From: Lachnospiraceae bacterium | GTDB lineage: Bacteria; Bacillota; Clostridia; Lachnospirales; Lachnospiraceae | DNA: 64,000 nt | Reading direction: 5' to 3' | NCBI GenBank assembly: GCA_902363675.1 | Contig: CABJAV010000006.1 | Location: 1 to 64,000, forward strand | Shown here: one piece after another, positions 2,862-31,230 of the stretch | Layout of the letters: every line of letters starts with the position of its first letter | Numbering within the stretch: position 1 is the first letter of the stretch | The notes under the pieces: model-generated | What the model was told of the DNA's origin: nothing | What the model saw: the letters and a program-made list of their open reading frames with translations, nothing else | Database searches by the model: none | Translations under genes and position numbers: made by a program

Positions 2862-5549
2862 ATGAAAAATATCATCCGTTTAGCAATTGCATATATTCGT
2901 TATTATAAAAAACAGGCGGCAGCGCTTTTGATGGGAGTGGTTTTATCTGCGGCACTATTTACGGGAATCGGTTCTTTATTTCAAAGTGGAAGAATGGCAG
3001 CATTGGAGAATGCTCGATTAGAATATGGAGATTGGCATTATAATACAAGGGGAGACTTTTCATCGGAAGAGGAATTTATAAAAAAGCTACAGGGAAAAGG
3101 ATATGAAGTTGAGAAATATGGGCTTGAAACTGTAAGAAAAGCAATTGAGGAACCATATAATATTCAGTTTGTTTATGCAGACAAAGGGTATCTGGATATG
3201 ATGGGCAGAAAGCTGAAAAAAGGGAAATATCCGGAAAAAGAAAATGAAATTGCAATGGATTCCTATACGTTAAAGAACCTGGGAGTTGAGGAAAAAACAG
3301 GAGAACAGGTTGCTTTGGATGGAGAAATATTTACTCTTAGTGGGATTCTGACAGAAATGCCGGAAAAACTTCCAAAACAGCAGGGCGATTTTATGCAGGT
3401 CTTTGTAAACAGTACATTAGATTATGGAAAGAACGGTACGTTTCTTTACCTTAAATTTGCAGAAGACGGAAATGTGTACAAACAAGTGACAGCATTTGCA
3501 AATAACTTTGGAATTAAGGTGAGGAATTTTACCCGCAATAATGGGCTTTCCTCTTATGTAGGAGCAGAAGCTCCCGCTGATATTTTAGAAACAATTAAGA
3601 CAGGATTGAAGTATAAAGAGGCAGGATTTCCTTATATTTGGGAACAATTAAATGGTAACGGAACTCTTACGGACAAAGTAATTCTGGCAGCACTTGCTTT
3701 ATTCAGTGCATTTGTCATCTACAGTTTATTTCAAATTTCTGTCAGTAAAAGAATGTCTCAGTACAGTGTGATGCAGACCCTAGGTATGTCAGATAAGATT
3801 ACGTTTGGAATCTTGCTTACGGAGATGTGCATGATATTTATAGTCGGTTATCCGATAGGTGTCATTTGTGGAAATCTCCTTGCAGCATTTACTTACGGAA
3901 AAACGGGACAGATATTTATTCCCCAGAATCAGATAAATCATACAGGAATTGACAGTAAAAGTCTGGAAAATGCAGCAATCAATTTGCCGGATGCGGGAAA
4001 ATTTCATATCAATCAGAACATCCTGATTTATGGCGCAGTGTTCCTGTTTGCTGTTCTATTAGTGATTTGCTGGATGATGATCAGACGAATGAAAAAAATG
4101 ACAATACGGCAAATGCTTGTCAAAGATACAGCAAAACACTCTAAAGACAGAAAAATATACAGTATCAGGCACGGCAATATGACAGGCATTTTAACAAAGA
4201 AATTTATGTATGCAAGGAAAAGTACGTTTGTTGGAATTTTACTGTCATTGTCAATGGGAAGTGTTATTTTTCTGGGGGCTGCTTATGTTACTGAAAATAC
4301 AAAAGTAAACAATGAGCTGACTTTTAAAGCAGATGATGGACTTGCATCAGATATACAGATTTATGAGGCATCAGATAAATTAACGGATTTTATACCGGAA
4401 AACATGATAAAGGAATTGAATAATACCACAGGTTTAAAAGCGATTCATCCTGTACGTTACTTATTAGGTGAAGTTCCGTTAAACGATGGGAAGTTTATAT
4501 GGACAGATTTTTTTGCGGAAACAGCAAATGATGAAACATGGAAACCTGATGAGGAACTGATGAAGAAATACAATGGTGTTGCAGCAAAAACCGGAGATGA
4601 TGATTATGCGCTGAAAGTTAATATTTACGGGTATGACGATGAAATGTTGAAGGAATTGGACAATTATTTATTGGAAGGAGTGGTCGATCCGCAACGGATG
4701 AGAAAAGAAAACAGCGTAATTGTTAAGACTTTGATGGATGGTCAGGGAAATTATGATGGAATAAAAATTGCCCCGGGTGATTTTCTTCAGATTAAGACAA
4801 TTAAAGATATTTCTGTTGATCCGGAAGCATTGCGATTTTTGGGTGAAGATGATTGGTATCAGGAGAAGGAACTGAAAGTTGCAGCATTGACAAGCCGTCC
4901 GTTGGCTAAAGTTGATACTTATATTGGTGATTCTGGTAAAGATTGTGTCGATATCATTATGACAAATGAACAGATGAAAGAAAATTTTGGAGTATCCGGT
5001 TATCAGACCGTCAGTATTTCCGTGGAAGAAAGTGCGGATGCAGAAAAAATATCTGCAGAATTGGGGAAATTAGCCGCAGGAGTTCCTAAATGTATTGTAA
5101 AAGATTATAGTCAGCAGATAAAAGCGCAGAATTTGTACCTTATGCAGAAAATGTTATTCTTTTATGGAATAGCAGCGGTACTTTTTGGAATTAGTATTCT
5201 TCATATTATGAACAGTATGCAGTACCTGGTAACTTCAAGAAAACATGAATTCGGAATTATGCGTGCAATGGGAATTACGGATATAGGATTTTGCAAAATG
5301 CTGATAAAGGAAGGACTTCGGTATGGAGTTTACTCTGGTTTAGTATTAACGATATTCTACATGATTGTACAAAAAGTATTATATTATTTTATGGTTCATG
5401 TATACCTGTATCTGCACCCAACGGGATTTATTTCTTGGCTGCCGTTTGTATCGGTAGTTACACTAAATATTGTGATTTGTATTCTGGTGGTTCTGGTTTC
5501 GGGAAGAACAGTTTTAAAGGAAGAAATTATAGATGAAATAAGAGAATGA
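2862..5549 (+). CDS. FtsX-like ABC transporter permease
   Basis: Permease of 895 residues with two FtsX-type halves. A hydrophobic segment near residues 15-35 is followed by an outward-facing domain. A first cluster of transmembrane segments lies around 275-405. A second hydrophobic segment (about 455-475) is followed by a long extracytoplasmic domain and three membrane segments after about residue 760. This is the layout of MacB/BceB relatives that act mechanically on substrates outside the membrane. An alternative GTG start nine bases upstream overlaps the ATPase gene but is too close to the ribosome binding site, so the ATG was preferred. Last gene of the regulator-kinase-ATPase-permease unit. 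Confidence 0.88.
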   Translation: MKNIIRLAIAYIRYYKKQAAALLMGVVLSAALFTGIGSLFQSGRMAALENARLEYGDWHYNTRGDFSSEEEFIKKLQGKGYEVEKYGLETVRKAIEEPYNIQFVYADKGYLDMMGRKLKKGKYPEKENEIAMDSYTLKNLGVEEKTGEQVALDGEIFTLSGILTEMPEKLPKQQGDFMQVFVNSTLDYGKNGTFLYLKFAEDGNVYKQVTAFANNFGIKVRNFTRNNGLSSYVGAEAPADILETIKTGLKYKEAGFPYIWEQLNGNGTLTDKVILAALALFSAFVIYSLFQISVSKRMSQYSVMQTLGMSDKITFGILLTEMCMIFIVGYPIGVICGNLLAAFTYGKTGQIFIPQNQINHTGIDSKSLENAAINLPDAGKFHINQNILIYGAVFLFAVLLVICWMMIRRMKKMTIRQMLVKDTAKHSKDRKIYSIRHGNMTGILTKKFMYARKSTFVGILLSLSMGSVIFLGAAYVTENTKVNNELTFKADDGLASDIQIYEASDKLTDFIPENMIKELNNTTGLKAIHPVRYLLGEVPLNDGKFIWTDFFAETANDETWKPDEELMKKYNGVAAKTGDDDYALKVNIYGYDDEMLKELDNYLLEGVVDPQRMRKENSVIVKTLMDGQGNYDGIKIAPGDFLQIKTIKDISVDPEALRFLGEDDWYQEKELKVAALTSRPLAKVDTYIGDSGKDCVDIIMTNEQMKENFGVSGYQTVSISVEESADAEKISAELGKLAAGVPKCIVKDYSQQIKAQNLYLMQKMLFFYGIAAVLFGISILHIMNSMQYLVTSRKHEFGIMRAMGITDIGFCKMLIKEGLRYGVYSGLVLTIFYMIVQKVLYYFMVHVYLYLHPTGFISWLPFVSVVTLNIVICILVVLVSGRTVLKEEIIDEIRE

Positions 5550-27271: not shown

Positions 27272-28180
27272 ATGAAGATAGCGGTTTTTGTGACAGGATG
27301 GAACAAAGAATATCTGCGCTATTTATATGGTGGACTGGTTAATGCGCAGAATAAATTTGGAGATGAAATCGACATATATACTTGTTATGCGAAGCTTGGT
27401 TCGGGAAACAGTGTCGATAAGTCAGAATTTTCATTCTTTAAGCTTGCAAATTTAAAAGAGTATGATGGCATTATATTTCCGAGCACTACAGTCAAAGAAG
27501 GCGACATTAAAAATAAAATGATCGAATGGATTCTGGACAGTGGAAGGCCTTGTGTGACTTTGGAAGAATTGATCCCATATATGTCTAGTGCCGCAATGAA
27601 TCAGTGGAATGGTATGCAGGATATGGTAGACCATCTTTTTTCAGTACATGGAATTCGTACCTTTGGTTTTTTGGGTGGTTATACGGATACCTGTGAGGCA
27701 GATTTACGAAAAAATGCGACCGTGGATTATATAGAAAAACATGGACTTGTCATGATGCCACAGTGGATACGTGATGGGATTTATGAGTATAGTGACGGAA
27801 TGGAGTATGCCACAGATCTGTTACTTGCTTATGAACAGCAGAAAGAAATTCCACAGGCGGTCGTTTGTGCAAATGATGTAATGGCAGCGGGAATTATTGA
27901 TGGTTTGTCGGATACACCTTTACAGAATAAGATTGCAGTAACCGGATTTGATCATTATTATGATGGAGAACTCTTTTCACCAACGATTACTTCTATTCGG
28001 AGACCAAGGGAAGAAGTCGCTTTTGACGGAGTGAAGCTGTTACATGAGATGGTGGAAAAAAATATGCAAATCCTATTCACAGGTATAGTCCGTACAAAAT
28101 TATTATTGGGCGAACATGTGGATGCCAAAATGTTCATGAGGCGGAAGATAATGCTGCTTTTCGTAAAAAGATGTTCATGA
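27272..28180 (+). pseudogene. LacI-type sensor half of a frameshifted sensor/diguanylate-cyclase gene
   Basis: The protein (302 residues as read) is a type I periplasmic-binding fold such as in LacI regulators but without a DNA-binding domain: MKIAVFVTGWNKEYLRYLYGG, then FGFLGGYTD, VVCANDVMAAGI and VTGFDHYYDGE. Such cytoplasmic sensor domains are found fused to GGDEF output. The last 17 or so codons look out of frame: just before 28120 the sequence reads GEHV, whereas one extra T would give GEHCGC and continue into the next frame. It is probably the 5' half of one gene with 28171-29085. A single-base sequencing error is an alternative. Confidence 0.75.
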
Positions 28181-29085
28181 AAATGTTTCAGGAACGACAG
28201 ATTTGTGCGCAATTTGATTCTATGGAAGAATCAATTGTCGGTCAGGTTTCTTTAGATCAGCTTTTGGACAAGGTGGCTGATTTTCTCGAAAAAAATGGGG
28301 CACAAATGGTTCAGATTTTACTTTCGGGAGATTTACTTTCTCACAAGGAACACAGTTATCGAAGCTGTCAGCATCTTGTACTTGATCGGAAGAAAGAAGG
28401 GCAGGACAGTAGCCAGATTCGGGTATTTATGCCACTTCATTATCAGCAACATCAGATGGGTTACTGTAAGGTTGTTGGTATGGATAAGATATTTGAAAAT
28501 GGTTTGCTAGAGGCTTTTTTCCGGACAATCTGCTATGCAATGGAAAATTATATTCAAAGACAGCAGTATGCTATTGTGAATCAGAAGTTGCAGAAAATGT
28601 ATCGGATTGACCAATTGACGGGAGTTTATAACCGTTTCGGAATGGAAGATCTTGGACAGGAGTTTTATCATAGTAACTGTTCGAAAAAGCGGAATACCAT
28701 ATTTATTTTCTGTGATATTAATCGGTTAAAATATATTAATGACACTTATGGACATCAGGCTGGTGATTGGGCGATTCAGACAACAGGCAGAGCTTTGGCA
28801 GCATTAGAGAGTGAACAAAGTATTGCATTCCGATATGGCGGAGATGAATTTGTATTTCTGACTGTGGAAGGCAGTGGTGTGGATGAAAAATTGATCCGAA
28901 TGAAATTGGAAGAACTTTGTCACGACTCTCCAATGAAAGAAAAATTAGAAATCAGCATCGGTAAAATTGTGGCATCCTGGAGAGAACCAGAGGATATGGA
29001 TACATATCTTGACCGTGCGGATGAGGCAATGTATCAGGAAAAGAAACAGTATTATGAGCAAAATCGCATAGAAAGAAGACGCTAG
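28171..29085 (+). pseudogene. GGDEF output half of the frameshifted gene
   Basis: As read, 304 residues: a helical linker region (about 1-130) followed by a GGDEF domain with the intact signature RYGGDEF, the metal/nucleotide segment DINRLKYINDTYGHQAGD and a final DEAMYQEKK. There is no RxxD inhibitory site five residues before GGDEF. The frame is open upstream of the ATG and reads CQNVHEAEDNAAFRKK in register with the end of the LacI-type sensor. The two frames therefore look like one former gene of about 600 codons. If the break is real, this half may still be made from the internal ATG, but no strong ribosome binding site precedes it. Confidence 0.78.
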
Positions 29086-29157
29086 AGTGACAGAGACTGA
29101 TTATGTAAATATTTAATATTAAAAAAAATCAACTAAATTGTTTAAATTTAATCATTG

Positions 29158-29205
29158 AATATATCAACAACTGTGATAAAATTCTATCATAGTTGTTGAT
29201 ATATT
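29158..29205. promoter_or_regulatory. 48-bp dyad in front of the leuA-AraC gene
   Basis: Arms 29158-29178 and 29185-29205 pair over 21 bases with a single G-T position and a six-base loop. Core halves are ATCAACAACTGTGATA and TATCATAGTTGTTGAT. A candidate promoter (TTGAAT 29155-29160, TAAAAT 29177-29182) lies inside it. It could be an operator for a dimeric regulator or an AT-rich attenuator; TTTTAATTTT follows. Confidence 0.6.
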
Positions 29206-29229
29206 TTAATTTTAGAAAAGAGGAACATT

Positions 29230-31230
29230 ATGAAGAATTTTGACAAGTATGAGAGACAGTATTTCCTTCCACCAGTATGTGAGTATGACTGGGTAAAGAA
29301 AGATTACATAGAGAAGGCACCTATCTGGTGTTCGGTAGATTTAAGAGATGGCAACCAGGCACTGATTGAGCCAATGAGTCTGGATGAGAAGCTGGAATTC
29401 TTCCAGATGCTTGTGGATATCGGATTTAAGGAAATCGAAGTTGGTTTTCCGGCAGCATCTGAGACAGAGTTCATTTTTATGCGTACATTGATTGAGCGTG
29501 ATATGATTCCGGATGATGTGACTGTACAGGTACTGACACAGGCCAGAGAACATATCATTAAAAAGACATTTGAAGCAGTCAAAGGTGCACCACATGCAGT
29601 AATTCATCTGTACAACTCTACGTCTGTGGCTCAGAGAGAACAGGTGTTTAAGAAAGATAAGGAACAGATCAAGAAGCTTGCCGTAGATGGAGCAGAATTA
29701 TTAAAGAAACTGGCATCTGAGACAGATGGAGATTTTTCTTTTGAGTATAGCCCGGAGAGTTTTCATGGTACAGAAGTAGAATATGCTGTTGAGGTTTGCA
29801 ATGCGGTTCTTGATGTATGGCAGCCAAGTGAGAAGCAGAAGGCAATCATCAATATTCCTGCAACGGTTGAGACAGCTATGCCACATGTATTTGCAACACA
29901 GATTGAATATGTAAGCAAGAACCTGAAATACCGTGACAATGTAGTATTAAGCCTTCACCCGCATAACGACAGAGGCTGTGGTGTCAGCGATGCTGAGTTG
30001 GGACTTTTAGCAGGTGCTGACCGTATCGAGGGTACATTGTTCGGAAATGGTGAGCGTACCGGTAATGTAGATATTATTACACTTGCCATGAATATGTTCT
30101 CCTATGGTATCGATCCGAAGCTTGACTTTGCTAATATGCCAGAGATTCGTGAAAAGTATGAGCGTCTGACAAGAATGCAGGTAAATGATCGTGCACCGTA
30201 TGCCGGAGATCTTGTATTCTCTGCATTTTCCGGGTCGCATCAGGATGCCATTGCAAAAGGCATGGCATGGAGAGAAGAAAAGCAGCTTAAGACATGGACC
30301 GTTCCATATCTTCCGATTGATCCAATGGATGTGGGAAGAACTTACGACAGCGATGTTATCCGTATCAACAGCCAGTCCGGAAAGGGAGGAATCAGTTATA
30401 TTCTGAAACAGAACTTTTCTATTTCTATGCCTGTTGCAATGCGAGAGGAAGTTGGATATGCCGTAAAGCAGGTTTCTGATGAGGAACATAAGGAACTTTC
30501 TCCACAGTGGGTATATGAGATTTTTGAGGAAAATTATGTGAACCGTATACCTTACTTTACCGTTGGAGAATGTCATTTTAAACAGAATGATGGAATTATG
30601 GCTGAGGCAAGCATTAATTTTGGAGGAAAGACAACGGTTGTAGATGCAAATGGTAACGGTCGTCTGGATGCCGTCAGCAATACATTAAAGCAGTTCTTTG
30701 ACATCAGCTATGAGTTGTCCACTTATGAGGAACATGCACTTTCTCATGGTTCTTCTTCAAAAGCCATCGCATATGTGGGAATTACCTGTGATGGTAAGAA
30801 TTACTGGGGTGTTGGTATGGATGAAGATATCATCAAGGCATCTATCAGTGCGCTGGTTGTAGCAGTGAACAAATTGCCACAGATCCAGCAGAATGAAGAA
30901 GGACAGGATGAACGTCTGACTGCTATGCTGAATTATATTCAGAACAACTATCAGACTGTTACATTGGAGAGCGTTGCAGAACAGTTCCATTTATCTGAGC
31001 CATATGTATCCAAGTATATTAAGGATAAATCCGGAAAGACATTTGGAGAGCACGTGGCACATATTCGTATGAAACGTGCGAAGACCCTTCTGAAAAACGG
31101 AAATATGACAGTTGAGAATATTGCTTATGCTGTAGGATATCAGAATGTAGAACATTTTAACCGTACATTCAAAAAGAGTTTTGATATGACGCCAATTCAG
31201 TATCGTAACGAAAGTCGCGAGCAGAAATAA
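29230..31230 (+). CDS. leuA: 2-isopropylmalate synthase fused to an AraC-type HTH domain
   Basis: A 666-residue protein. Residues 1 to about 555 are a long-form LeuA, which condenses acetyl-CoA with 2-oxoisovalerate in leucine synthesis. IWCSVDLRDGNQAL, IEVGFPAAS, the metal motif LHPHNDRG and EGTLFGNGERTGN mark the catalytic barrel. A C-terminal allosteric LeuA-dimer domain (about 430-550) binds leucine in homologues. Residues 562-666 are a complete AraC/XylS helix-turn-helix pair: VTLESVAEQFHLSEPYVSKY, then MTVENIAYAVGYQNVEHFNR and FKKSFDMTPIQYR. One continuous frame with no stop or shift joins them. RBS AAAAGAGG. No other leucine genes are nearby. A leucine-responsive enzyme-regulator is inferred. 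Confidence 0.93.
   Translation: MKNFDKYERQYFLPPVCEYDWVKKDYIEKAPIWCSVDLRDGNQALIEPMSLDEKLEFFQMLVDIGFKEIEVGFPAASETEFIFMRTLIERDMIPDDVTVQVLTQAREHIIKKTFEAVKGAPHAVIHLYNSTSVAQREQVFKKDKEQIKKLAVDGAELLKKLASETDGDFSFEYSPESFHGTEVEYAVEVCNAVLDVWQPSEKQKAIINIPATVETAMPHVFATQIEYVSKNLKYRDNVVLSLHPHNDRGCGVSDAELGLLAGADRIEGTLFGNGERTGNVDIITLAMNMFSYGIDPKLDFANMPEIREKYERLTRMQVNDRAPYAGDLVFSAFSGSHQDAIAKGMAWREEKQLKTWTVPYLPIDPMDVGRTYDSDVIRINSQSGKGGISYILKQNFSISMPVAMREEVGYAVKQVSDEEHKELSPQWVYEIFEENYVNRIPYFTVGECHFKQNDGIMAEASINFGGKTTVVDANGNGRLDAVSNTLKQFFDISYELSTYEEHALSHGSSSKAIAYVGITCDGKNYWGVGMDEDIIKASISALVVAVNKLPQIQQNEEGQDERLTAMLNYIQNNYQTVTLESVAEQFHLSEPYVSKYIKDKSGKTFGEHVAHIRMKRAKTLLKNGNMTVENIAYAVGYQNVEHFNRTFKKSFDMTPIQYRNESREQK

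Follow-up and report, generated by a model that had tools for sequence, protein, structure and literature searches.

The window, the whole 64,000-nucleotide stretch of Lachnospiraceae DNA analyzed here, carries a leuA gene that runs without interruption into an AraC-type DNA-binding domain. A ribosome-binding-like AGAGG lies ahead of its ATG. The gene and the parts of its protein are:

29230..31230, + strand: leuA-araC fusion gene, ATG start, 666 amino acids, stop codon included
29320..30150, + strand: HMGL-like catalytic domain, residues 31-307 (Pfam PF00682, 1.7e-70)
30208..30408, + strand: IPMS_D2 post-catalytic domain, residues 327-393 (Pfam PF22615), which contains Y360
30496..30876, + strand: LeuA_dimer allosteric, leucine-binding domain, residues 423-549 (Pfam PF08502)
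30877..30912, + strand: variable linker, residues 550-561, from column entropy
30913..31209, + strand: AraC-type DNA-binding domain, residues 562-660, from Pfam, AlphaFold and conservation

The sequence-only reading of this DNA had described one unbroken frame for a complete long-form LeuA and a complete two-HTH AraC domain, and domain searches with Pfam and NCBIfam agree. All Pfam matches lie above their curated cut-offs, the three LeuA domains being followed by the AraC domain, whose start had been placed near base 30913; residue 562 is encoded from exactly this base. Residues 5-548 match NF002991 / PRK03739 (long-form 2-isopropylmalate synthase) with 801.6 bits against a cut-off of 455, while the cut-off of the yeast-type equivalog TIGR00970 is missed (659.9 versus 697.4 bits), so that the protein is assigned to the broader subfamily only. 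Pfam HTH_18 covers residues 583-660 (75.5 bits) and HTH_AraC residues 622-660 (51.6 bits). Both HTH units and the signature of the second HTH are present, consistent with membership of the AraC/XylS family. Mutation of the HTH had been named as a sign that would speak against the fusion, and the HTH in the window is not degenerate.

The residues D40, H243, H245, E275, N279, H337 and Y360 are invariant in an alignment of 43 rows (38 fused, 5 non-fused); catalytic roles are ascribed to these residues. Y360 aligns with Tyr410 of Mycobacterium tuberculosis LeuA in an alignment to 1sr9, and the GNG loop of the regulatory domain aligns as well. According to a study on the mycobacterial enzyme, the Tyr410Phe variant is insensitive to leucine and Y410 belongs to a groove together with the GxGERxG motif and H379 (PMC2704214). 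As the counterpart of Tyr410 and the GNG loop are kept in the fusion, leucine sensing by the LeuA part is likely intact.

An AlphaFold model of the fusion has a mean pLDDT of 78.4 and a pTM of 0.58, a value at which the relative placement of the domains is unreliable. The C-terminal part is modeled as seven helices with pLDDT of 79-89 in ten-residue blocks, and seven is the count expected for an AraC DNA-binding domain. Its recognition helices presumably span residues ~589-601 and 639-651, as judged from the anatomy of the family. Using Foldseek, the closest solved enzyme is M. tuberculosis LeuA (3hps, E 8.1e-52), and the best 50 matches listed are all enzymes aligned to the LeuA part.

Two further genes lie upstream on the same strand: 27272-28180 encodes a protein with a LacI-type sugar-binding domain without HTH, and 28171-29085, overlapping it by 10 bases and ending just upstream of leuA, encodes a GGDEF protein. 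The two may form a sensor-cyclase pair, or they may be the halves of one gene that has been split.

Distribution, selection and history of the fusion

In a protein search, the best 120 of 7984 scored matches were all 665-667 amino acids long, with an identical domain set and 99-100% identity, and the commonest of them occurs in 656 contigs. They come from Agathobacter, Roseburia, Lachnobacterium or Lachnospiraceae and, where named, are called plain 2-isopropylmalate synthase; counts of regulators will therefore miss the fusion. The full-length fusion (match to residue 660 or beyond) is found in at least 68/299 genomes of the family of Roseburia faecis. None of seven Lachnospiraceae gut genomes checked (R. 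faecis, R. hominis, Mediterraneibacter massiliensis and others) holds a second full-length LeuA match beside this enzyme. In Lachnobacterium bovis (G004:C6:4452-4629) we noticed two short stretches, 57-58% like LeuA residues 1-60, in small frames.

For comparison of whole loci we gathered 186, dropped L073 (start off the contig) and removed duplicates (185 to 176); L076, an AraC-only match, was also dropped. The 176 unique loci comprise 123 fused loci, each counted as such for a single open frame of at least 640 codons, 45 with LeuA only, 6 scored split and 2 cut by contig ends. Of those scored split, L034 is so only because its contig ends, leaving five true splits (L058, L059, L069, L188, L189). 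Internal stops reported by the search were inspected in four loci; where present, they lie at residue ~662, the normal end of the protein. Homologs with a stop between leuA and araC had been proposed as the observation that would overturn the fusion; true splits of any kind make up 5/176 loci, while 123 are fused in one frame. An assembly or frame artefact that joined leuA to an adjacent araC gene has next to no probability and is already refuted, as the same architecture occurs in at least 68/299 genomes of the family and in hundreds of contigs. Homologs had also been considered possible in related gut Firmicutes, and the fusion proves to be widespread in the R. faecis family and under selection. 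It is fixed and old.

Among the 123 fused proteins, mean column entropy is 1.05 for the AraC domain, 1.09 for the leucine-binding domain, 0.52 for the catalytic domain and 2.54 for the linker, the AraC domain being about as conserved as the leucine-binding domain. The two recognition helices are better conserved than the AraC domain as a whole (0.57 and 0.81). For the AraC part, dN/dS is 0.00-0.04 in 5/10 pairs with unsaturated dS, compared with 0.01-0.05 for LeuA in 10/10; dN of the AraC part is somewhat higher than that of LeuA in 3/10 pairs. Purifying selection on the AraC part is strong.

A quick tree of LeuA residues 1-549 (173 rows, L059 left out, root not inferred) unites all 123 fused rows in one supported group of 141 (SH-aLRT 95), which also contains 13 LeuA-only and 5 split rows; the other 32 LeuA-only rows lie outside. 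The simplest reading is a single fusion event with several later losses. Of the 13 LeuA-only rows within the group, however, five (L169 plus four that cluster together) arise at its unresolved base, so loss is not demonstrated for those five.

Three Ruminobacter rows (L021, L023 and L025; L023 is the isolate R. amylophilus DSM 1361) nest among Lachnospiraceae, and their loci carry the fusion together with both DNA sites described below. In L025 the fusion gene lies 640 bp from malE, whose product scores 482 bits against a MalE equivalog cut-off of 291 and matches E. coli maltose-binding protein constructs at 4.6e-117. Neighbors of the fusion in L023 include genes for an NAD diphosphatase (over its cut-off) and a pabB-like protein (under its cut-off), and by eye the same two follow in L025. 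The E. coli-type malE and the other neighbors indicate that the Ruminobacter fusion sits in a gammaproteobacterial chromosome; the fused gene thus moved laterally into this gammaproteobacterium. A further, distant LeuA match (29% identity) occurs in R. amylophilus, on the same contig as an aconitase-family gene that is probably leuC.

In three of the split loci (L058, L059 and L069) the AraC part lies in the -1 frame after leuA, the shift falling at an A9 run that is identical in all three and sits in the linker after LeuA residue ~549, and L188 has the same arrangement at an A8 run. Between L058 and L069, dS is 0.67 for LeuA and 0.88 for AraC while dN in the AraC frame is 0.066; the two other frames of the AraC part have dN higher than dS. 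The AraC frame of this pair still evolves as protein. The arrangement suggests programmed slippage at the A run, by which LeuA and LeuA-AraC would be made from one gene. The candidate operator described below is present in L059, L069 and L188, and L058 has only 44 bp of upstream sequence. L059 is also broken early in the LeuA frame (72 codons). The in-frame fusion L030 also has A9 in its linker, besides a T-box and the AraC-linked operator, and slippage there would yield LeuA alone. Separately, in the close relative L189 (G074; 82% in LeuA) a stop and a change of frame separate leuA from the AraC part, a single case that may reflect mutation or assembly error.

A candidate operator upstream of leuA

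Reading the upstream DNA of relatives first brought a shared element to notice. In the window, the promoter region contains:

29119..29156, + strand: site 1, the conserved AraC-linked candidate operator, 38.6 bits on the family matrix
29172..29182, + strand: extended -10 region TGTGATAAAAT, from the family pattern, after a 15-bp gap from site 1
29156..29207, no strand: dyad spanning the -10 box and the predicted start, 52 bp, 22/26 positions pair, center 29181.5

A dyad upstream of the gene had been seen in the sequence-only reading and is real. It can be read as another pair of inverted copies of the site, at 29154-29191 (+, 9.7 bits) and 29172-29209 (-, 14.7 bits). The predicted transcription start, near 29189, falls inside the dyad, which should therefore act as DNA and not as an RNA hairpin. 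Rfam detected no T-box, riboswitch or other RNA leader in the window, and the best operator match in the rest of the 64 kb scores 0.3 bits.

An EM-built operator matrix (38 columns, 34.8 bits) was scored at 12 bits or more within 900 bp upstream. Fused loci with at least 200 bp of upstream sequence numbered 121, the fused loci L014 and L217 being dropped for shorter upstream DNA and the split L058 for its 44 bp. The candidate operator is present in 112/121 fused, 5/5 scored-split and 2/2 cut loci, compared with 0/45 LeuA-only loci of the subfamily and 0/545 Markov controls. A held-out model, seeded with the window's own site and built from 38 loci of the tree region to which the window belongs, reached 5 bits or more in 72/84 other fused loci and 1/45 LeuA-only loci. 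The spacing from the operator to an extended -10 (TRTGNTA) is exactly 16 bp in 82/119 site-bearing loci, 13/119 being without such a box, while the operator stands anywhere from 60 to 824 bp ahead of the ATG. At operator promoters the -35 match averages 3.15 of 6 bases versus 2.55 at random positions, and 2/93 reach 5 of 6 bases of the consensus; as the match is slightly above random, a "weak -35" is a matter of degree. The placement of the candidate site, next to the -35 and with a fixed spacing, fits the pattern of AraC/XylS regulators. A second copy after the first (site 2, at least 5 bits), whose orientation varies among loci, is found in 60/104 T-box-free fused or split loci and in 1/580 controls.

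All 13 LeuA-only loci within the fused group lack the operator. On supported branches an average of 4.5 of 5 independent pairs agree and none disagrees (p 0.0625, five pairs being unable to reach 0.05), and a thinned careful tree gives 4.6 agreeing pairs and none disagreeing. Joint loss of domain and operator is suggestive, not significant.

Nine of the 121 fused loci fall below 12 bits, three as near misses (8.3-11.9) and six without a site. Two of the latter, L048 and L050 of the Agathobacter ruminis group, have lost the site with the HTH intact and carry TTGACT-17-TAGCAT upstream. L234 is fused without a site and its recognition helices have decayed; a T-box-like signature found there by pattern is not confirmed by Rfam. 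The remaining site-less fused loci keep the HTH. A near-consensus promoter was found in 5/9 fused loci without a site versus 13/112 with one, and in 10/45 LeuA-only loci, all small numbers. Fusions can be neutral, and in L234 a fused AraC domain has been able to decay, so that the domain might be a passenger or an oligomerisation piece that has lost DNA binding. We regard this as very improbable, because the domain is strongly constrained, most of all in its recognition helices, and because L234, the only clearly decayed copy noticed, is also without the site.

A T-box leader signature is found by pattern in 34/45 LeuA-only loci and in 13/121 fused loci, 12 of which keep the AraC-linked site. 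Of 20 loci submitted to Rfam, split and fused ones among them, 14 proved to have a T-box. In the eight fused loci with an Rfam-placed T-box, the operator lies upstream of the T-box. Site 2 at 5 bits or more is found in 1/12 T-box loci. An apparent lack of the operator in fused T-box loci was rejected, as a 250-bp search had been too short and the site lies farther upstream. Mutual exclusion of T-box and site 2 (60/104 versus 1/12) fell in the independent-pairs test. In the non-fused locus L170 (G086), a Clostridiales-1 RNA match at 3439-3602 (-) lies between the T-box and the leuA start.

Genome-wide searches place the site almost entirely at leuA. A 31-base pattern with up to three mismatches gave one match each in 29/36 genomes, every one just upstream of leuA by manual comparison with the leuA coordinates and with matrix scores of 34.3-46.9, and no match in the other 7; the reversed-pattern control gave one match in all 36 genomes. 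Using a 64-base pattern that includes the -10 region, we obtained 31 matches in 28/33 genomes and none in the other 5 (control 0). Of these matches 27 are at leuA, one of them (G313) on another contig whose end by eye overlaps the start of L014, and 4 at leuB of Butyrivibrio. This leuB operator is present in 4/4 Butyrivibrio genomes (L292, L314, L315, L318) with the same spacing to TATAAT, and one leuB locus scores 10.5 bits on the operator matrix; the other 19/23 leuB loci score no higher than 2.1 bits with the 28-base core. The operator is absent from the 30 leuC/aconitase-family loci scanned, some of which are aconitase or a second match on one gene, and Rfam found nothing in 14 leuC and 3 leuA loci. 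In 1.6 Mb scanned on both strands, all matches of at least 10 bits lie upstream of leuA. A 19-base pattern with one mismatch gave 43 matches in 14 genomes versus 14 for the reversed control; of 30 such matches made into loci, only 7, at leuA, reach 10 bits. Weaker further sites may possibly exist elsewhere in the genomes.

The gain of the operator at leuB argues for a trans-acting regulator of leucine synthesis. As leuC, and leuB outside Butyrivibrio, are without the site, the pathway as a whole would stand outside this control. If it binds these sites, the fusion would be a transcription factor with nearly one target, its own promoter. Alternatively, another regulator may occupy the promoter element, with the fused AraC domain serving other targets or the allostery of the enzyme, as the domain without a site in L048/L050 and a few other loci might suggest. 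We consider this improbable: none of the 45 loci that lack the domain has the site, a self-regulator accounts well for a single strong site in a genome, and the site accompanies the fusion even in Ruminobacter, in which one would not expect a separate regulator from Lachnospiraceae.

Proposed mechanism and comparison with known systems

The fusion, the selection on it, the operator, its co-occurrence with the domain and its near-single-target distribution are read from sequence; from these we infer that the protein binds DNA, responds to leucine, activates from site 1 and represses from site 2. We think it likely that LeuA-AraC combines enzyme and transcription factor in one chain, with its own promoter as essentially the sole target. 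One protein would then probably make leucine and sense leucine to set the activity of its own gene. The earlier suggestion, by which leucine sensing in the enzyme would also place a DNA-binding domain, gains support at the level of sequence from a widespread, selected fusion and an element at leuA that tracks the AraC domain.

LeuA is a dimer in known structures, and a LeuA dimer would supply two DNA-binding domains. In the proposed mechanism, the LeuA part makes 2-isopropylmalate, dimerizes and binds leucine, and the C-terminal AraC domains would bind site 1 beside the -35, as well as site 2 over the start in loci that have it. Leucine-free protein would most likely activate leuA from site 1, which we propose on account of the fixed spacing to the extended -10 and the weak -35. 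Binding of leucine, or surplus protein filling site 2, would lower transcription. One allosteric site would thereby set both the activity and the synthesis of the enzyme.

A pure autorepressor, in which only leucine-bound LeuA-AraC binds the sites and blocks the promoter with no activation, is a possible but rather unlikely alternative. Genes of amino-acid synthesis are classically repressed by their end product, an extended -10 could function without an activator, and both the window and the 60 T-box-free loci given above have a second site after the -10. The other 44/104, however, as well as 11/12 T-box loci, are without a second site of at least 5 bits, and the strongest and most conserved site lies upstream at a fixed spacing to the -10 that a repressor does not need. 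Furthermore, L048 and L050, which lost site 1, carry TTGACT with a spacer of 17 bp, as though to make up for a lost activator, and the excess of near-consensus promoters among site-less fused loci points the same way, within its small numbers. Activation from site 1 by the leucine-free protein is therefore preferred.

If this mechanism holds, feedback inhibition and transcriptional feedback share one protein and plausibly one ligand site. A fuller picture would be a self-contained, portable leucine homeostat. A single leucine site would set activity and transcription through about one operator per genome, replacing or overlaying T-box control; the gene would have moved with its operator into a gammaproteobacterium and recruited leuB in Butyrivibrio, with A9 slippage uncoupling the doses of enzyme and regulator in one lineage. 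Taken jointly, we see this picture as evenly poised between right and wrong. The natural set of fused, non-fused, T-box and frameshifted genes makes dual feedback by one allosteric site directly testable.

No description of a LeuA-AraC protein was found among the matches listed in the open-access literature, in agreement with the initial statement that no characterized protein of this kind was known. M. tuberculosis LeuA (1sr9, 3fig) is the same three-domain enzyme, with 44% identity over 564-566 aligned columns, but has no DNA-binding domain; its chain ends after the regulatory domain, whereas the fusion continues into AraC. T-box leader RNA represents an alternative leucine-linked control of leuA, and the window has none according to Rfam. 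With AraC/XylS regulators LeuA-AraC shares the two-HTH domain, and its candidate site near the -35 at fixed spacing and the frequent second copy after the promoter fit that family. In those regulators the effector and dimerization part is a cupin-type or other dedicated sensor domain, while in LeuA-AraC it is a whole enzyme.

The complete, conserved enzyme, the selected DNA-binding domain and the candidate operator that tracks this domain are what would be expected of a trigger enzyme, and a trigger enzyme of new make-up is our best reading. Like the E. coli trigger enzymes PutA, BirA and NadR, LeuA-AraC is a metabolic enzyme that gained a DNA-binding domain; unlike them, it is a biosynthetic enzyme with a feedback-inhibitor site and carries an AraC-type domain at the C-terminus. 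The nearest case in kind is PutA of E. coli. This proline dehydrogenase binds DNA nowhere but in the putA-putP spacer and is thus a single-target regulator whose target includes its own gene (PMC8249747). PutA is described as a repressor, while the upstream site of LeuA-AraC suggests activation.
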